Shown: piece by piece, positions 28,770-35,050 of the stretch
How positions within the stretch are numbered: the stretch's first letter is position 1
Layout: every line of letters begins with the position of its first letter
From: Algibacter luteus
GTDB lineage: Bacteria > Bacteroidota > Bacteroidia > Flavobacteriales > Flavobacteriaceae
Length of the DNA stretch: 64,000 nt
Assembly: GCF_900141715.1 (NCBI RefSeq)
Contig: NZ_FQYK01000002.1
Location: 177,495-241,494, forward strand
Direction of reading: 5' to 3'
Made by a program: the position numbers and the translations under genes
The notes under the pieces: generated by a model
Told to the model about the DNA's origin: nothing
Database searches by the model: none
The model's input: only the letters and a program-made list of their open reading frames with translations

Positions 28770-29126
28770 ATGAAGTTCTTTATTATAATTCTGGCATTAA
28801 CTTTTACGAGTATATGTAGTGCACAATTTATTTCAGGAGATGATAAACTCCATTTTGGTGCTGGTTTCTTAATTTCTGGCGGAACTTATACTCTGGTATA
28901 TTCAAAAACTAAAAACAAAAAGAAGGCTTTTTGGTATAGTTTAGCAGCTTCTACTTTTGCAGGTTTATCTAAAGAAATTTATGATGGTTATATCATCGAA
29001 GGACGGTTTGACACAGGAGAAGCCATTGCTACAAGTCTAGGTGGACTAACGGCAAGTACAACACTCCAGTTGTTTGTTGGCAATAGCAAGCGTAGGCAAA
29101 TGAAGCATCTGGTTTTAGTTAACTAA
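28770..29126 (+). CDS. Small envelope protein, YfiM/DUF2279-like
   Basis: 118 aa. A signal peptide (SICSAQ) is followed by DKLHFGAGFLISGG, a helix with FWYSLAASTFAGLSKEIYDG, and DTGEAIATSLGGLTAS. These blocks resemble YfiM/DUF2279 small membrane-associated proteins (D-K-x-x-HF opening, KE-x-x-D middle). Function is unknown. The 3' end overlaps the convergent monooxygenase gene by 12 bp. Confidence 0.7.
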   Translation: MKFFIIILALTFTSICSAQFISGDDKLHFGAGFLISGGTYTLVYSKTKNKKKAFWYSLAASTFAGLSKEIYDGYIIEGRFDTGEAIATSLGGLTASTTLQLFVGNSKRRQMKHLVLVN

Positions 29127-30094: not shown

Positions 30095-30114
30095 TTATTA
30101 TGCGTGCATAATAA
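30095..30114. promoter_or_regulatory. ATGC-NN-GCAT palindrome, candidate operator
   Basis: TTATTATGC, GT, GCATAATAA: 9-bp perfect arms. It lies between the divergent monooxygenase gene (33 bp from its ATG) and the first secreted paralogue (155 bp from its ATG). Related sites occur at 33543 and 33632. Confidence 0.6.
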
Positions 30115-30268
30115 AATTTGTTTAAAACCAATAATACCAACTTTCATATAATCAATTTAAAAGAAATTTAAAGTTACCTAAGTAGCACAACAACAACCTA
30201 TAATCTTCTATTTTGAAACAATTAAACAAATTTATTTTAATTAACCTCTAACATAAAAACCAACCATT

Positions 30269-30793
30269 ATGAAAAAACTATTAATTTATCTCACCGTTAT
30301 TGGGTTTATTAACCTCGGGTTTTCACAAATCCATCAAAACTATGTTGATAATTACCAACTTGCAAGCGTGGTTATTAATGCACCTAATTATACTTATCTT
30401 CAAAAAGTACAGGACTTTAATACTCCTGTACGAGTTAAAAAACTTGAAAATCAAGTGGCTTCATATAATATAAAATCGGATCCTATATATGATTTAGCCT
30501 TTGAAGATAAATACAAAGTCATATTTGAAGAAACCAAAAGTAAAATTGTTGTTACTTATGATAAACACGGAAATATATTAACATCGTTTGAGAAATTCGA
30601 AGATGTGAGGCTTCCTCAAGATATTTATGCCTCAATTGCTAACGATTATCCCGGATGGGCTATAGTTAACGATACTTATATAGTGAAATATTACCAAAAT
30701 AAGGAAGAGGTACGTAAAATTTACAAGATAGAAATCTCTAAAGATGATACTACTAAAAATTTAAGAATCAATTCACTAGGACTTATAGAGTGA
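30269..30793 (+). CDS. Secreted PepSY-like paralogue 1 of the 30-35 kb island
   Basis: 174 aa. The signal peptide ends near LGFSQ. The mature part has a short N-terminal segment (LASVVINAPNYTYLQKV), then a two-lobed alpha/beta pattern. The conserved block is YKVIFEETKSKIVVTYDKHG, NILTSFEKFEDVRLPQDIY, NDYPGWAIVNDTYIVKY, IYKIEI. That resembles the PepSY-like / DUF2874 type of small periplasmic protein, but assignment is by pattern only. The D-x-x-G-K/N-I turn and EKF-x-x-[IV]-x-LP are shared with the three other paralogues in this island. It is followed by a terminator, so it is probably a single-gene transcript. Confidence 0.8.
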   Translation: MKKLLIYLTVIGFINLGFSQIHQNYVDNYQLASVVINAPNYTYLQKVQDFNTPVRVKKLENQVASYNIKSDPIYDLAFEDKYKVIFEETKSKIVVTYDKHGNILTSFEKFEDVRLPQDIYASIANDYPGWAIVNDTYIVKYYQNKEEVRKIYKIEISKDDTTKNLRINSLGLIE

Positions 30794-30812
30794 TAAGTAT
30801 TAAAGATATAAT

Positions 30813-30853
30813 AAGGTGCCAGTATTTTTATGACAACTTGCACCTTTTTTTTT
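30813..30853 (+). terminator. Intrinsic terminator after secreted paralogue 1
   Basis: Stem AAGGTGC (30813-30819) pairs with GCACCTT (30840-30846), followed by a T-run to 30853. The loop is long (20 nt). Confidence 0.75.
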
Positions 30854-30986
30854 AATGATTTAAAATGAATCCAAACTATCTTAATTCATTGAATTTCAGC
30901 ACAAAACATCCATTAGTGAAAATTATTAGGTTTTTTTAAGTATCTTTATTTCCAATTCTCCTCGATTTTCTAATTTGTTTTACTTG

Positions 30987-31003
30987 AAAGTTATAATAAC
31001 TTT
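30987..31003. promoter_or_regulatory. Inverted repeat upstream of first Crp/Fnr gene
   Basis: AAAGTTAT-A-ATAACTTT, 8-bp perfect arms, 38 bp before the ATG of the regulator. It is a candidate autoregulatory operator; it does not match the classical Crp (TGTGA-N6-TCACA) or Fnr (TTGAT-N4-ATCAA) boxes. Confidence 0.4.
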
Positions 31004-31040
31004 TGAGTGACCATTACATTGATCATTTTAAACTAAAAAA

Positions 31041-31736
31041 ATGAATTCAGTTCAATTTGAAAGTTATTTTAAAAGTATTGCAAAGAGTGATCTTTTTTCG
31101 AACATTCCTCCTAGTTCGATTGCAGAATTACTCAACAATAGTACTTTAGAAAATTGGCAAAAAAAAACTTGTTTCATTAGCAAAGATGTAATCCATAATA
31201 AATTTCATATTTTAATTTCAGGCAAAATAAAAGCCTATAATTATGATTTTAGGAACGACCGAAGATTCACGCTGTTTTTATTGAAAGAAAACGATCTATT
31301 TGACGTATTCTCATTGGAAAATAAAATGGAACATAATATTCATTACGAAGCTTTAAAAGACTCATTGGTGCTGTCAATACCTGTATTTAAAATGAAACAA
31401 TGGGCACATAAAAATCCTGCTATTCATACTGCATTAACACAGTATGTTTTGAATAGAATTTTAGTATTGGAAAATTTCATAAACGATGTTGTAATTGAAG
31501 ACACGTTTACGAGGTTAACTAAATTATTTATAAAATATATAGATAAGCCAACTAAAAAATTTACAATGATTAATGACTTATCTCATGATGAGCTCGCACA
31601 GTTAATAGGCACAACCAGAGCAGTTTTGAATAGACATATTCAAGTATTTAAAGACAACGGTATCATTGAAGTAAGTAGAAATAGTACACAGTTAAAAGAC
31701 TATAACAAACTTTTAAATATGGCAAATAATTTATAA
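31041..31736 (+). CDS. Crp/Fnr-family transcriptional regulator, copy 1
   Basis: 231 aa. The N-terminal cyclic-nucleotide-binding-like beta-roll (about 1-115) has the FHILISGKIKAYNYDFRNDRRFTLFLLKENDLFDVFSL pattern. A long dimer helix follows, then a C-terminal winged helix-turn-helix (about 170-215, LSHDELAQLIGTTRAVLNRH, the typical Crp recognition helix). The Arg/Ser phosphate pocket of true cAMP receptors is not evident, and there are no four Cys for an Fnr iron-sulphur cluster. The ligand is therefore unknown. A close paralogue lies immediately downstream. Confidence 0.92.
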   Translation: MNSVQFESYFKSIAKSDLFSNIPPSSIAELLNNSTLENWQKKTCFISKDVIHNKFHILISGKIKAYNYDFRNDRRFTLFLLKENDLFDVFSLENKMEHNIHYEALKDSLVLSIPVFKMKQWAHKNPAIHTALTQYVLNRILVLENFINDVVIEDTFTRLTKLFIKYIDKPTKKFTMINDLSHDELAQLIGTTRAVLNRHIQVFKDNGIIEVSRNSTQLKDYNKLLNMANNL

Positions 31737-31975
31737 TAACCAGTTTAGAATATATAATTTGATTTTAGAATGAACCTCTAACAATAGCTGCACATTTCCC
31801 TTTAGAAGGCCATGTAATATCTGTTAATTTTATTTTAAAATATTACATTTCTCGATTAAAAATTGTATATTAAGGTTTCCCTTTTGAATTTAAAGAAACA
31901 TTCTAAATTAATCATTTTTCCTCAAAAAATTAATTTAACCTCGTTTTGATTTGATATGGTATAAATTCAAATGCA

Positions 31976-32674
31976 ATGGGAAAAATCGATCAAAATAATC
32001 CTTATTTTATCAATTTAAAAAAGAGTAATCTTTTTGATAAGTTATCCAATCCATCCCTTTTAAATCTTTTTGATATTGGTTACATTGAACAATGGCCAAA
32101 AAAAACATGTCATTTTGGTGACAAAAACATTCATAAATTTCATATTATTCTAACAGGAAAAATAAAGGTGTATAATTATAATATTGAAAACGACCGATAT
32201 TTTACGCTTTACATTCTTAAAGCTAATGATATGTTTGATGTATTAACTTTAATTAATGGTTATACACATAATATTTATTACGAATCTTTAAACTATAGTG
32301 AAATTTTATGTATACCAGTTGCTAGTATGAAAGTATGGCTAACTAAAAACCCGATTTTTGTGAAATCTATTCTAGACTTTACTTTACATAAAATGAATCA
32401 TCTTGAAGAATATGTAAAAGAAATAATTATAGACGATACACCAACTCGATTCGCAAAGCTATTAATTAAATATCACAATAAACTTACAAATAAGTTAGAA
32501 GTCATTAACAATCTTCCTCACAATGAATTAGCAAACTTAATAGGCACTACCCGAGCTGTTTTAAACAGACATATCCGCACTTTAAAATTAAGTGGTATTA
32601 TAAAAATACATAAGAAAAATATTGAAATTTGCGATATGGATAAATTGGTTAGTCTTATTAAGAGCGACAATTAA
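31976..32674 (+). CDS. Crp/Fnr-family transcriptional regulator, copy 2
   Basis: 232 aa, colinear with copy 1 over its whole length: FHIILTGKIKVYNYNIENDRYFTLYILKANDMFDVLTL matches the same beta-roll stretch, and LPHNELANLIGTTRAVLNRH the recognition helix. The HTH is almost identical between copies while the ligand domain has diverged, so both may recognise similar DNA but respond to different signals. It is separated from copy 1 by 239 bp with no clear terminator. The start is ATG at 31976; another ATG 5 bp earlier is out of frame. Confidence 0.92.
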   Translation: MGKIDQNNPYFINLKKSNLFDKLSNPSLLNLFDIGYIEQWPKKTCHFGDKNIHKFHIILTGKIKVYNYNIENDRYFTLYILKANDMFDVLTLINGYTHNIYYESLNYSEILCIPVASMKVWLTKNPIFVKSILDFTLHKMNHLEEYVKEIIIDDTPTRFAKLLIKYHNKLTNKLEVINNLPHNELANLIGTTRAVLNRHIRTLKLSGIIKIHKKNIEICDMDKLVSLIKSDN

Positions 32675-32833
32675 TACATTAAGAAACATTTAACAGTATT
32701 TCGCACCTAGGTAACTTTTTAAACTGAATTGCTCGATTATCTTTGGTTCAATCCCAACAATAGAATTGTACAATTTTTTAAGAATTAATGATAGTTTATT
32801 AGTTAACGGAATTATTAATTTAACACAAAAAAA

Positions 32834-33352
32834 ATGAAAAATTTTATTATTGGTTTATTAGTTTTAGGACTCACCAACCTATCAGTTGCACAGAATAAAA
32901 GTTTATCACAAAGTGAACTTTTACCAGAAGTAACAATTGTTCCACGCAATTTAACTTATATAAGTAAAGTTGTTGATGATAACGCACCGTTAAAGGTTAA
33001 AAAACTGGAGAGAACTGTTGCCCGTTACGATGTAACAGAACATCCAGATTTTGAATTAGAAGACATTCAAGCATTTGAAGTAATTTTTCAAGAATCAAAT
33101 GCGAGAGTTATCGCTACTTACGATGAAGCTGGGAAAATTTTAAAGTCTTTTGAGAAATTTAAAAATATTGCTTTACCCAAAAATATTGTAAAGCAAATAA
33201 TGATGAAATACCCAGGATGGCATTTTGAATCAGACACCTATTTGGTGCGATACTTTCAAGGAAAAGAAGCTAAAAAATATTACACTGTTAAACTCTTGAA
33301 AGACGATAATAGAATTAAATTAAAAATTGATCCATCTGGAAGAATTCTTTAA
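32834..33352 (+). CDS. Secreted PepSY-like paralogue 2
   Basis: 172 aa; signal peptide ending LSVAQ. The N-terminal segment reads LLPEVTIVPRNLTYISKV. The conserved block follows: FEVIFQESNARVIATYDEAG, ILKSFEKFKNIALPKNIV, MKYPGWHFESDTYLVRYFQG, YYTVKLL, ending KIDPSGRIL. It is the paralogue nearest to number 1 (shared KVKKLE and YPGW). It lies directly downstream of the two regulators and is followed by a strong terminator. Function unknown. Confidence 0.8.
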   Translation: MKNFIIGLLVLGLTNLSVAQNKSLSQSELLPEVTIVPRNLTYISKVVDDNAPLKVKKLERTVARYDVTEHPDFELEDIQAFEVIFQESNARVIATYDEAGKILKSFEKFKNIALPKNIVKQIMMKYPGWHFESDTYLVRYFQGKEAKKYYTVKLLKDDNRIKLKIDPSGRIL

Positions 33353-33380
33353 AATTTTATTATGGCAAATTCTCAATAGC

Positions 33381-33425
33381 ACCGCAAATGTTACTACTAG
33401 TTTTAGGGCATTTGCGGTTTTTTTT
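33381..33425 (+). terminator. Intrinsic terminator after secreted paralogue 2
   Basis: Stem ACCGCAAATG (33381-33390) pairs perfectly with CATTTGCGGT (33409-33418), followed by a T-run. Confidence 0.9.
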
Positions 33426-33542
33426 ACTTCACTTAACATTGCTTTAATTTCTAAATCTACTCAGTTAATAAATTTACCACATTCAAAAGCAACCATTTTT
33501 ACCTCTTTATAAGTTTTCTTTAATTCCTTTTGTAATAATTTA

Positions 33543-33566
33543 AATTACTATGCATGCATAGTAATT
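33543..33566. promoter_or_regulatory. 24-bp perfect palindrome, candidate operator
   Basis: Half-site AATTACTATGCA is followed directly by its exact complement TGCATAGTAATT. It shares the ATGC-NN-GCAT core with sites at 30095 and 33632. The surrounding 33353-33681 gap otherwise holds only the terminator of the previous gene, a small ATTGAT-T-ATCAAT palindrome overlapping its right end, and AT-rich spacer. Confidence 0.65.
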
Positions 33567-33631
33567 GATTATCAATAGGTTACAAAAATATTCATGTAAA
33601 CCATTGATAACATGACTTTTATCATATTTTT

Positions 33632-33647
33632 ATTATGCATGCATAAT
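33632..33647. promoter_or_regulatory. 16-bp perfect palindrome, candidate operator
   Basis: ATTATGCATGCATAAT, 35 bp before the ATG of secreted paralogue 3 and 89 bp after the start of the 24-bp palindrome with the same core. Confidence 0.65.
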
Positions 33648-33681
33648 TAATTTTATACTCGAAAAATATAAAACCTCTATC

Positions 33682-34182
33682 ATGAAAAAATTATTATCTG
33701 TAGTATTCACTTTAAGCTCTTTAAGTTTAATATACTCGCAAACTGTGGAATTACCTGAAACTGTAATAACAGTAAATTCTGATTATATGAACTCAGTGGC
33801 ATATGAAAACAATTGTAGTTACGTTAACAAATTGGAAAAAGCTCTTTTAGAATATAAATCATCTCAACTTTCTGAATTATACGACACTAAAAACGACATC
33901 TACAATGTTACTTTTCAAATTCCTGAAGGGCAAATAGTTGCTTCATTCAATAAGGATGGAAAAATTATTAAAACTTTTGAAAAATATAACAACATAAGAT
34001 TACCTCATATTGTATTGCAAGCTATTGCGGAAAAGTATCCTCAAAGTAGTATTGTAGAAGATGTTTATGTAGTTAAATTTCATTGTGATGAAGATGCTTT
34101 AGAACAAGTTTATAAAATAAAAATTAAAAACAACGATTCTATAATAACTGTGAAAACCAATAAAAAAGGAGAGTTTATATAG
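33682..34182 (+). CDS. Secreted PepSY-like paralogue 3
   Basis: 166 aa; signal peptide ending LIYSQ. The N-terminal segment reads VELPETVITVNSDYMNSV. The shared block follows: YNVTFQIPEGQIVASFNKDG, KIIKTFEKYNNIRLPHIVL, EKYPQSSIVEDVYVVKFH, YKIKIKNND, ending KTNKKGEFI. It is closest to paralogue 4 (DVYNV/DIYNV-F-IPEG). Two ATGC-NN-GCAT palindromes lie in its promoter region. Function unknown. Confidence 0.8.
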   Translation: MKKLLSVVFTLSSLSLIYSQTVELPETVITVNSDYMNSVAYENNCSYVNKLEKALLEYKSSQLSELYDTKNDIYNVTFQIPEGQIVASFNKDGKIIKTFEKYNNIRLPHIVLQAIAEKYPQSSIVEDVYVVKFHCDEDALEQVYKIKIKNNDSIITVKTNKKGEFI

Positions 34183-34465
34183 AATTAATCTTTAAACCGA
34201 TATAATAACCACATTTTAATTTGGCAACTTTCACAAGAGCAAAAAGATGACCAATATCATATGCTTTAATTTAAAGTTGCCTCGTAATTTGATTGTTACT
34301 AATATATGGTTTAAAAACAAATTTTGTTACAGATCTTAACTCATATTAAATGTTAAATTTTAACATTAAACACCCCACTAAACACCTGTTATTCTGATAG
34401 TTATCATTGCAAGAGCTTTATCATTAATGTAACTTAAAGTTATTAACCTTTAATACATTAATACT

Positions 34466-34966
34466 ATGAAAAAATTAATTTTTAGTCTGATTGTTTTTTG
34501 TCTGACCTTTGAGGTTTATTCTCAAATAACTCAATTACCTGAGGTGGTTATCACAGCAGTAAATTATAAATATTTGAACGCTGTTGAAAATGAAGATACC
34601 GATATATCTGTTCAAATGCTACAAGAAAAAGTAGCCATGTACGATATAAAAGAATCAGAACTTTACGAAGATGAATATGATGTTTATAATGTATCCTTTT
34701 TTATCCCCGAAGGAAAAATACTTGCAGCATATGATAAAGATGGAAAAATTATTAGAACAATTGAAAAATTTAAAGACATTAAATTACCGAGGGCAGTTCA
34801 GCAAGCTATAGGTAAAAGATTTCCAAATTGGTCTTTAGAAAAAGATGTTTATCTGGTAAATTTTCACAGGGACCACGATAAAATTTTTAAGCAATACAAA
34901 GTGAAACTTAAAAATGGAAATAAAACTATGAGGGTAAAATTAGATGAGAACGGTGATTTTATTTAA
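34466..34966 (+). CDS. Secreted PepSY-like paralogue 4
   Basis: 166 aa; signal peptide ending EVYSQ. The N-terminal segment reads TQLPEVVITAVNYKYLNAV, a LPEVVITA stretch that superficially resembles a TonB box. The shared block follows: YNVSFFIPEGKILAAYDKDG, KIIRTIEKFKDIKLPRAVQ, KRFPNWSLEKDVYLVNFH, QYKVKLKNG, ending KLDENGDFI. Proteins of this kind are, to my recollection, sometimes mislabelled nicotinate-nucleotide adenylyltransferase; no nucleotidyltransferase motif (such as GxFxPxHxGH) is present here. Upstream lie two small inverted repeats (AATGTTAA-ATT-TTAACATT at 34349 and TAACTT-A-AAGTTA at 34430). Confidence 0.8.
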   Translation: MKKLIFSLIVFCLTFEVYSQITQLPEVVITAVNYKYLNAVENEDTDISVQMLQEKVAMYDIKESELYEDEYDVYNVSFFIPEGKILAAYDKDGKIIRTIEKFKDIKLPRAVQQAIGKRFPNWSLEKDVYLVNFHRDHDKIFKQYKVKLKNGNKTMRVKLDENGDFI

Positions 34967-34992
34967 TTAGTACAGACAAACTGCAAAAAATC

Positions 34993-35026
34993 AAAAAGCA
35001 CAATTAACAATTTGATTGTGCTTTTT
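34993..35026. terminator. Bidirectional intrinsic terminator
   Basis: AAAAAGCACAAT and ATTGTGCTTTTT form a perfect 12-bp stem around a 10-nt loop. The A/T-rich ends serve both the + strand paralogue 4 gene and the convergent - strand methyltransferase gene. Confidence 0.9.
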
Positions 35027-35050
35027 CAATTGAATAGAGTTACTTCAACG

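Follow-up and report, generated by a model that had tools for sequence, protein, structure and literature searches.

What do two closely related Crp/Fnr-type regulators do among four copies of a small exported protein, and do they control their neighbors? The question is raised by six genes within a 64,000-nucleotide stretch of the Algibacter luteus genome (GCF_900141715.1, contig NZ_FQYK01000002.1, forward-strand positions 177,495 to 241,494; hereafter the window). Consecutive plus-strand open reading frames (ORFs), each starting with ATG, encode the secreted proteins Sec1–Sec4 and the regulators Crp1 and Crp2 in an order, with sizes and on a strand that match the initial annotation; its island of four related secreted proteins and two related regulators at 30269–34966 is borne out by the ORFs and the alignments (Table 1). 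Comparison across genomes suggests that this is probably a private module of regulator, promoter, and target, in which a Crp subfamily activates the neighboring PepSY-like gene and FNR-type regulators serve other members of the same target family.

A Crp subfamily beside an exported protein family

The Sec proteins, whose signal peptides were assigned by eye without a predictor, align over their full length, the other three being 41, 33, and 34% identical to Sec1, with 26 invariant columns. A profile built from the four matches exactly these proteins in the whole 3.38 Mb genome (E 0.01). The family was retrieved from 111 of 299 genomes of the window's taxonomic family (four-protein profile, E 1e-5) and from 24 of 395 genomes of its phylum (53-sequence profile, E 1e-8).

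Crp1 and Crp2 share 46% identity over 223 residues (E 6e-70), and no other protein of this genome comes closer to the pair than E 1e-12. Both carry a C-terminal HTH_Crp_2 domain (38.9 and 46.1 bits; cut-off 27) and an N-terminal domain of the cNMP_binding (cyclic nucleotide monophosphate) type that scores 24.6 and 25.0 bits against a Pfam cut-off of 27.5. A profile of 23 subfamily sequences matches Crp/Fnr structures over their full length (E 4e-27), and its alignment to 3r6s and 4byy shows FGEL changed to FDVF and PRTS to EHKV. The Gly-Glu and Arg replaced here are the residues that hold the cyclic phosphate in CRP proteins binding cyclic AMP (cAMP). Oxygen-sensing FNR proteins are defined by an N-terminal cysteine cluster, which Crp1 and Crp2 lack, having no cysteine ahead of residue 44. 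These features point to a branch of Crp proteins without the cAMP residues, which would no longer bind cAMP and would answer another signal.

A search of named genomes for the Crp subfamily yielded 102 relatives, of which the best 80 were kept. At 75 of these loci, a gene that matches the secreted-family profile follows Crp in the same orientation and starts no more than 2 kb away (nearest at 29–533 bp), four of the matches being short and weak (135–145 residues; L164, L204, L207, and L211); the short protein at L211 is a Pfam PepSY_like protein above the cut-off (32 bits). With a secreted gene upstream of Crp at L134, and a short PepSY-like gene recognized by eye at L162 and L200, a PepSY-like gene adjoins Crp in 78 of the best 80 of 102 named loci, which speaks for the co-occurrence in other flavobacteria that the initial annotation had raised as a question. 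No match to the secreted family was seen at seven Crp relatives from outside the taxonomic family (E ~1e-31 to 1e-34), whose loci were covered for about 1.5 kb to either side. Counted by genome among the 299, the secreted family is present in 28 of 31 genomes with the Crp subfamily (E 1e-30) versus 83 of 268 without it (Fisher p 1e-10, uncorrected for kinship). Searches of the open-licence literature found nothing combining flavobacteria, the Crp/Fnr family, and PepSY, and nothing on this pair among the matches listed on PepSY, Crp, and periplasmic regulators in Bacteroidetes.

Three chromosomal contexts of the pair were recognized among 61 regions. One, as in the window, has genes that we take from their sequences to be dnaK and nitronate monooxygenase (27 and 23 of the 61 regions, respectively, both with and without Crp), another has a presumed cysteine synthase gene (five regions), and the third has the short form of the secreted gene (five regions). 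Alternatively, a secreted gene could simply have been duplicated in place next to two Crp genes that have nothing to do with it, with no common control; this would fit the general frequency of tandem paralogs and the close relatives of sec3 and sec4 at loci without Crp. Against the 78 linked loci, the three contexts, and the operator shared between them, such a duplication is barely credible.

The Crp-type operator and its distance to the promoter

The dyad CTAC-N4-GTAG is present in exact form in 43 of 87 sequences upstream of secreted genes, compared with 8 of 647 upstream of other ORFs at the same loci. From 38 distinct sites, a 20-base palindromic profile was derived (AnTGCTACTTAAGTAGCAnT, the center pair being flanked by C or T and A or G), and the operator upstream of the secreted gene takes the form TGCTAC-N4-GTAGCA. 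The CRP site is TGTGA-N6-TCACA, with the same spacing as TGCTA-N6-TAGCA. At Crp loci, 24 of 33 secreted genes (one more was dropped for too little upstream sequence) have an upstream score above the 99th percentile of the controls (12.8), as against 0 of 35 genes (29 regions) at loci without Crp, where the best score is 5.2. Of 14 regions whose Crp is not among the best 80, 11 have an above-threshold site with the promoter spacing described below. The exact 16-base form was counted 16 times across ten Crp genomes (0–4 per genome), and 14 of these copies lie within 10 kb of a Crp gene.

Within the window alone, motif counts are at chance (the 16-base palindrome at three mismatches found once, with 0.7 expected; the plain motif TTTAAAGTTACCTA found 24 times, with 27 expected); the operator became recognizable through genome comparison only. 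The initial annotation held that secreted genes occurring widely without a Crp-like neighbor, together with expression unchanged on loss of either regulator, would refute a common system. The first half applies, such genes being indeed widespread, 83 of the 111 genomes lacking the Crp subfamily at E 1e-30; yet the 35 genes at Crp-free loci have no Crp-type operator and thereby support the link between Crp and site instead of refuting it. The sec1 site joins one usual half to the half AGTTAC, which is also found within the sec2 site, and a heterodimer of Crp1 and Crp2 on the sec1 site is possible. The sec2 site is the best of its upstream region and was listed before spacing was examined. Open-licence literature on TGCTAC/GTAGCA palindromes held nothing related among the matches listed.

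Some operators (L142, L143, L181, and L187) extend to perfect or nearly perfect 28-base palindromes, with outer arms that differ between loci. Further sites near the regulator were seen at L099 (six), L098, L096, and L097, ahead of genes for a lipoprotein family, further secreted proteins, and membrane proteins that we take to be HdeD-like.

The position of the operator is fixed to the base. Counting from the dyad center, all 63 scored sites among the 87 upstream sequences have TA at +29/30 and TT at +33/34, while any other offset from 10 to 60 gives 0–5 sites with TAnnTT. These -7 elements precede the annotated ATG in 61 of the 63 cases, and in the remaining two the element is reached only by reading on past the annotated start; in a second collection, 33 of 39 sites at Crp loci keep the 29-bp spacing. 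The sigma-A box of Flavobacterium psychrophilum, TAnnTTTG, lies at -12 to -5 (PMC9723704). Combined with the 29-bp spacing, this box places the operator center at -41.5, a value that rests on start sites deduced from the -7 element. We infer that -41.5 here is the position of a class II activator; in Escherichia coli, the site lies at most 4 nt from it at 19 of 23 FNR-activated promoters whose starts are known (PMC3688515). Dimers of the Crp subfamily would bind TGCTAC-N4-GTAGCA at this position in the promoter of the neighboring PepSY-like gene and, as class II activators, switch that gene on.

Several observations weigh against this reading. No Crp-type operator was found upstream of crp1 or crp2 among the best palindromes inspected, and the regions upstream of the 80 named crp genes contain 0 exact Crp-type dyads, so there is no sign of autoregulation. 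Loci L145 and L210 show no PepSY-like neighbor when read through. Of the 14 regions whose Crp is not among the best 80, L077, L092, and L100 lack an above-threshold site (a search for another palindrome in the Crp–secreted gaps of L077 found none), as does the Crp region L052, whose upstream sequence is missing; L098 has two sites without the spacing, one of them ahead of its secreted gene. Within the window, sec1 has the only strong operator, the sec2 site scoring no better than chance by score alone, and across the ten genomes exact sites exceed the reversed control only twofold (16 versus 8). Loci, not genomes, were classed as Crp-free, and genomes G056, G031, G211, and G257 carry Crp elsewhere; the genomes used to train the operator profile overlap part of the test set. 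On a tree of 69 family proteins, the link between site and Crp is not significant after correction for kinship, only two independent pairs lying on well-supported branches. The position of the operator is by itself compatible with repression.

The missing site at the crp genes themselves, the loss of significance on the tree, and the dnaK-like gene that adjoins secreted genes with and without Crp would all suit a different regulator binding the palindrome, with the Crp gene a passive neighbor kept by synteny. We consider this unlikely, given that none of the 35 secreted genes without Crp at the locus has the site, that it is found again with Crp in two further chromosomal settings, and that it has both the half-site layout of CRP and the class II position. 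Some Crp/Fnr sites do repress; that the Crp proteins repress the neighboring gene is nevertheless distinctly unlikely in view of the invariant -41.5 center, which is common to the FNR-type sites before the COX1 and radical-SAM (S-adenosylmethionine) genes of this genome and is where class II activators sit in E. coli (PMC3688515).

A different dyad, GCAA-N2-TTGC, stands ahead of crp in 35 of the 80 upstream regions (2.2 expected; L152, L158, and L195 among them); these regions belong to relatives of Salegentibacter, Christiangramia, Gillisia, and Salinimicrobium.

FNR-type and MarR-type sites of other family members

Activation by the Crp subfamily would account for part of the family, and other members carry a different site at the same promoter position. 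The motif TGAT-N4-ATCA is frequent at family genes without Crp, with 19 sites in a 69-gene set, 15 of them at the 29-bp spacing. At Crp-free loci, an exact site with this spacing precedes 13 of 35 genes versus 0 of 647 controls, and one with at most one mismatch precedes 21 of 35 versus 1 of 647, the scan covering 350 bp for family genes and 300 bp for controls. Both sec3 and sec4 have such sites.

Elsewhere in this genome, ATGATA-N2-TATCAT occurs in six copies (reversed control, 0), ahead of a COX1 gene and a radical-SAM gene, among others, which we take to be cbb3-like and HemN-like, respectively. A 29-bp distance was found on one side at six of nine loci tested in this and three other genomes, including all four in this genome; the FNR-type sites at L250, L251, and L259 lack it. 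Roughly 3 kb separate the COX1 site from a gene for a Crp/Fnr protein with N-terminal cysteines (C4 and C7; L039). By gene content, the genes behind ATGATA-N2-TATCAT look like an FNR-type, low-oxygen regulon. The fixed 29 bp from FNR-type site to TAnnTT was seen at G000:C5:112538 (L248), L252, L255, and L261, and a 29-bp rule for finding class II promoters in flavobacteria is possible. Nothing was found in the open-licence literature on the binding site of a flavobacterial or Bacteroidetes Fnr regulon with cbb3.

A third palindrome, TATGCATGCATA, is enriched in the genome at one mismatch or fewer (15 in 3.38 Mb versus 4 for the reversed control), and three copies lie in the cluster, in keeping with the palindromes that had been noted around the secreted genes; within the window, the count at two mismatches is not above chance (7 found, 4.4 expected). 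Among family genes, 11 of the 35 without Crp and 4 of the 34 with Crp have its form TATGC-N2-GCATA in the 400 bp ahead of them, versus 9 of 647 controls (300 bp), and in 9 of these 15 genes two copies stand 77–96 bp apart. In all six genomes examined (L122, L232, L233, L234, L237, and L245), TATGCRYGCATA stands upstream of the same MarR-type gene, which is followed by a 3-hydroxyacyl-CoA dehydrogenase gene (Pfam on the copies of this genome), and a longer form, WTATGCRYGCATAW, occurs 17 times in these six genomes versus 2 for the reversed control. In A. luteus the palindrome also precedes FabH-type and electron-transfer flavoprotein genes; other copies precede genes without a plain link to fatty acids. 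TATGC-N2-GCATA thus looks like the operator of a fatty-acid MarR, a regulator on which no Bacteroidetes paper was present among the open-licence matches listed. The proximal copy at sec3, which falls between its FNR-type site and its -7 element, occupies a position suited to repression.

The initial annotation had the two regulators controlling the set of envelope proteins, perhaps under different conditions. The part concerning sec1 and sec2 fits the Crp-type operator at the former and its degraded form at the latter; sec3 and sec4 instead carry FNR-type sites, and sec1 and sec3 MarR-type ones. Under the module proposed here, sec1 and sec2 would answer to Crp1 and Crp2, and sec3 and sec4 to an FNR-type regulator acting at low oxygen through a different site in the same position, as would other members of the target family. 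At sec3 the fatty-acid MarR would probably act as a repressor, and at sec1 it would add a second input. An exported flavobacterial family would in this way gain predicted switches, with the operator and its promoter position specified exactly and three inputs as candidates.

The tree of the 69 proteins (L052 coded as site-free) places sec1 and sec2 in a weakly supported group of mostly Crp-linked members (Shimodaira–Hasegawa-like approximate likelihood-ratio test, SH-aLRT, 83). sec3 falls in an 11-member clade (100) with the MarR palindrome in all promoters, and sec4 in a six-member group (89) with the FNR-type motif in all members. As judged from this tree, the cluster joins lines that are found apart elsewhere. 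Eight changes of Crp-site state are required, and promoters were probably rewired during descent, the site of one Crp/Fnr relative being exchanged for that of another with the distance to the -7 element fixed to the base.

The separate terminators ascribed to the secreted genes are partly supported. Stems with T runs follow sec1, sec2, and sec4 as inverted repeats, but a consensus terminator scan reported none of the three, its two hits both lying within genes (1.4 expected). Upstream of the cluster, at positions 28770–29126, the window has a gene for a small exported protein resembling YfiM (NCBIfam E 7e-4, under the cut-off); counting the window, four regions have such a gene close to the cluster.

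Table 1. Genes, candidate regulatory sites, and terminator-like stems of the cluster, in window coordinates
Feature	Position	Strand	Remarks
MarR-type operator TATGCGTGCATA	30099..30110	.	upstream of sec1
Crp-type operator of sec1, AAAGTTACCTAAGTAGCACA	30170..30189	.	profile score 19.8, best in window
-7 element of sec1, TATTTTGA	30209..30216	+	29 bp after operator center
sec1	30269..30793	+	secreted protein, 174 aa
Terminator-like stem and T run after sec1	30810..30849	+	inverted repeat; not reported by consensus scanner
crp1	31041..31736	+	Crp/Fnr-type regulator, 231 aa, without cNMP-anchoring residues
crp2	31976..32674	+	crp1 paralog, 232 aa
Degraded Crp-type operator of sec2, TTTCGCACCTAGGTAACTTT	32699..32718	.	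profile score -0.1
-7 element of sec2, TATCTTTG	32738..32745	+	29 bp after operator center
sec2	32834..33352	+	172 aa; directly 3' of crp2, arrangement also in other genomes
Terminator-like stem and T run after sec2	33381..33424	+	inverted repeat at 33381–33418; not reported by consensus scanner
MarR-type operator TATGCATGCATA, distal	33549..33560	.	upstream of sec3
FNR-type site of sec3, TGACTTTTATCA	33613..33624	.	1 mismatch; -7 TA at 33648, 29 bp after center
MarR-type operator TATGCATGCATA, proximal	33634..33645	.	between FNR-type site and -7 element of sec3
sec3	33682..34182	+	166 aa
FNR-type site of sec4, TGATAGTTATCA	34395..34406	.	exact; -7 TA at 34430, 29 bp after center
sec4	34466..34966	+	166 aa
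Terminator-like stem and T run between sec4 and convergent gene	34988..35031	.	inverted repeat; not reported by consensus scanner

Fold of the secreted proteins and known systems

The secreted proteins had been described as PepSY/DUF2874-like, a description that the fold comparison favors and that the profile scores leave far below the Pfam cut-off for all four. Sec2 and Sec3 reach 14.8 and 14.6 bits with PF11396 PepSY_like (DUF2874; gathering cut-off 28.3), Sec1 and Sec4 have no PF11396 match in the Pfam profile search, and 3 of 53 family members reach PepSY_like at E 0.1. NCBIfam gave no match for Sec2, Sec3, or Sec4 and two matches far below threshold for Sec1. An AlphaFold2 model of Sec4 from 53 sequences (predicted local distance difference test, pLDDT, 90) shows a helical signal peptide, a flexible stretch at about residues 20–33, two helices, and strands around one helix; a single-sequence model of Sec2 was poor (pLDDT 47) and was set aside. 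DUF2874/BLIP-like structures from Bacteroidales lead the Foldseek results for Sec4 with modest template modeling (TM) scores (E 3e-4 to 1e-2, probability 1.00, TM 0.33–0.38), and the same structures lead with VIA (Z 6.3–7.3; next unrelated structure, 5.7). With five of them topping both lists, the comparison, made with Sec4 as the only well-modeled member, favors a fold of the DUF2874/BLIP-like kind at these modest scores.

Many family proteins have tails behind the signal peptide (LPEVVIT, LPETVIT, LSEVVVT) that, to our eye, resemble the TonB box of outer-membrane receptors. A strict TonB-box-like motif, [EDG][TVI][VITLM][VI][TS], is found within residues 17–60 of 27% of 131 distinct family proteins versus 1% of shuffled segments, in the stretch that is flexible in the Sec4 model. 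It is conceivable, though a long shot, that the family consists of soluble periplasmic TonB-binding proteins, in which a TonB-box tail is joined to a BLIP-like body, and that they restrain or divert energy-dependent uptake and are switched by low oxygen, by fatty acids, and by a third, private signal read by the Crp subfamily. In the module proposed here, the exported Sec proteins would work by attaching to a partner in the periplasm, as is thought for BLIP-like and PepSY proteins; the authors of the DUF2874 structures suggest that these proteins are inhibitors acting through partner binding (PMC2954215).

Two further groups bearing the PepSY name were set aside. The PepSY-like electron-transfer proteins described in PMC8238504 sit in the membrane and belong to different Pfam families, and the iron-responsive "PepSY" proteins of Bacteroides and Bizionia (PMC10434189 and PMC9478572) are not shown to be members of the secreted family.

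Among known systems, DUF2874/PepSY_like proteins (PF11396; 3u1w, 4k61, 4hbr, 4fr9, 4ipb; BVU2987, 3due) resemble the Sec proteins in being short exported proteins and provide the leading folds; the window proteins differ in their scores below the Pfam cut-off, in the modest fold scores, and in an extra N-terminal helical and flexible part. The Porphyromonas gingivalis HaeSR locus likewise has a DUF2874 gene, encoding the lipoprotein PG0717, beside regulator genes, but its regulators are a two-component system tied to heme and not Crp proteins (PMC3764172).

Class II activators of the Crp/Fnr family (E. coli CRP and FNR; the Corynebacterium glutamicum type of 3r6s and 4byy) share with Crp1 and Crp2 the two-domain layout, the HTH_Crp_2 domain, and a palindromic site with half-sites at the CRP spacing and a center placed here, by deduction, at -41.5. 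Unlike CRP, the subfamily has the half-site TGCTA where CRP has TGTGA, its cNMP-anchoring Gly-Glu and Arg are replaced, and its sites lie mostly near the regulator gene, the 14 of 16 exact sites within 10 kb being on the same contig. The FNR-type regulon of this genome, with its presumed cbb3-like COX1 and HemN-like genes, has the same motif and 29-bp spacing as the sec4 site; the Sec targets differ from it as exported proteins without a known redox role, under a regulator that is putative.

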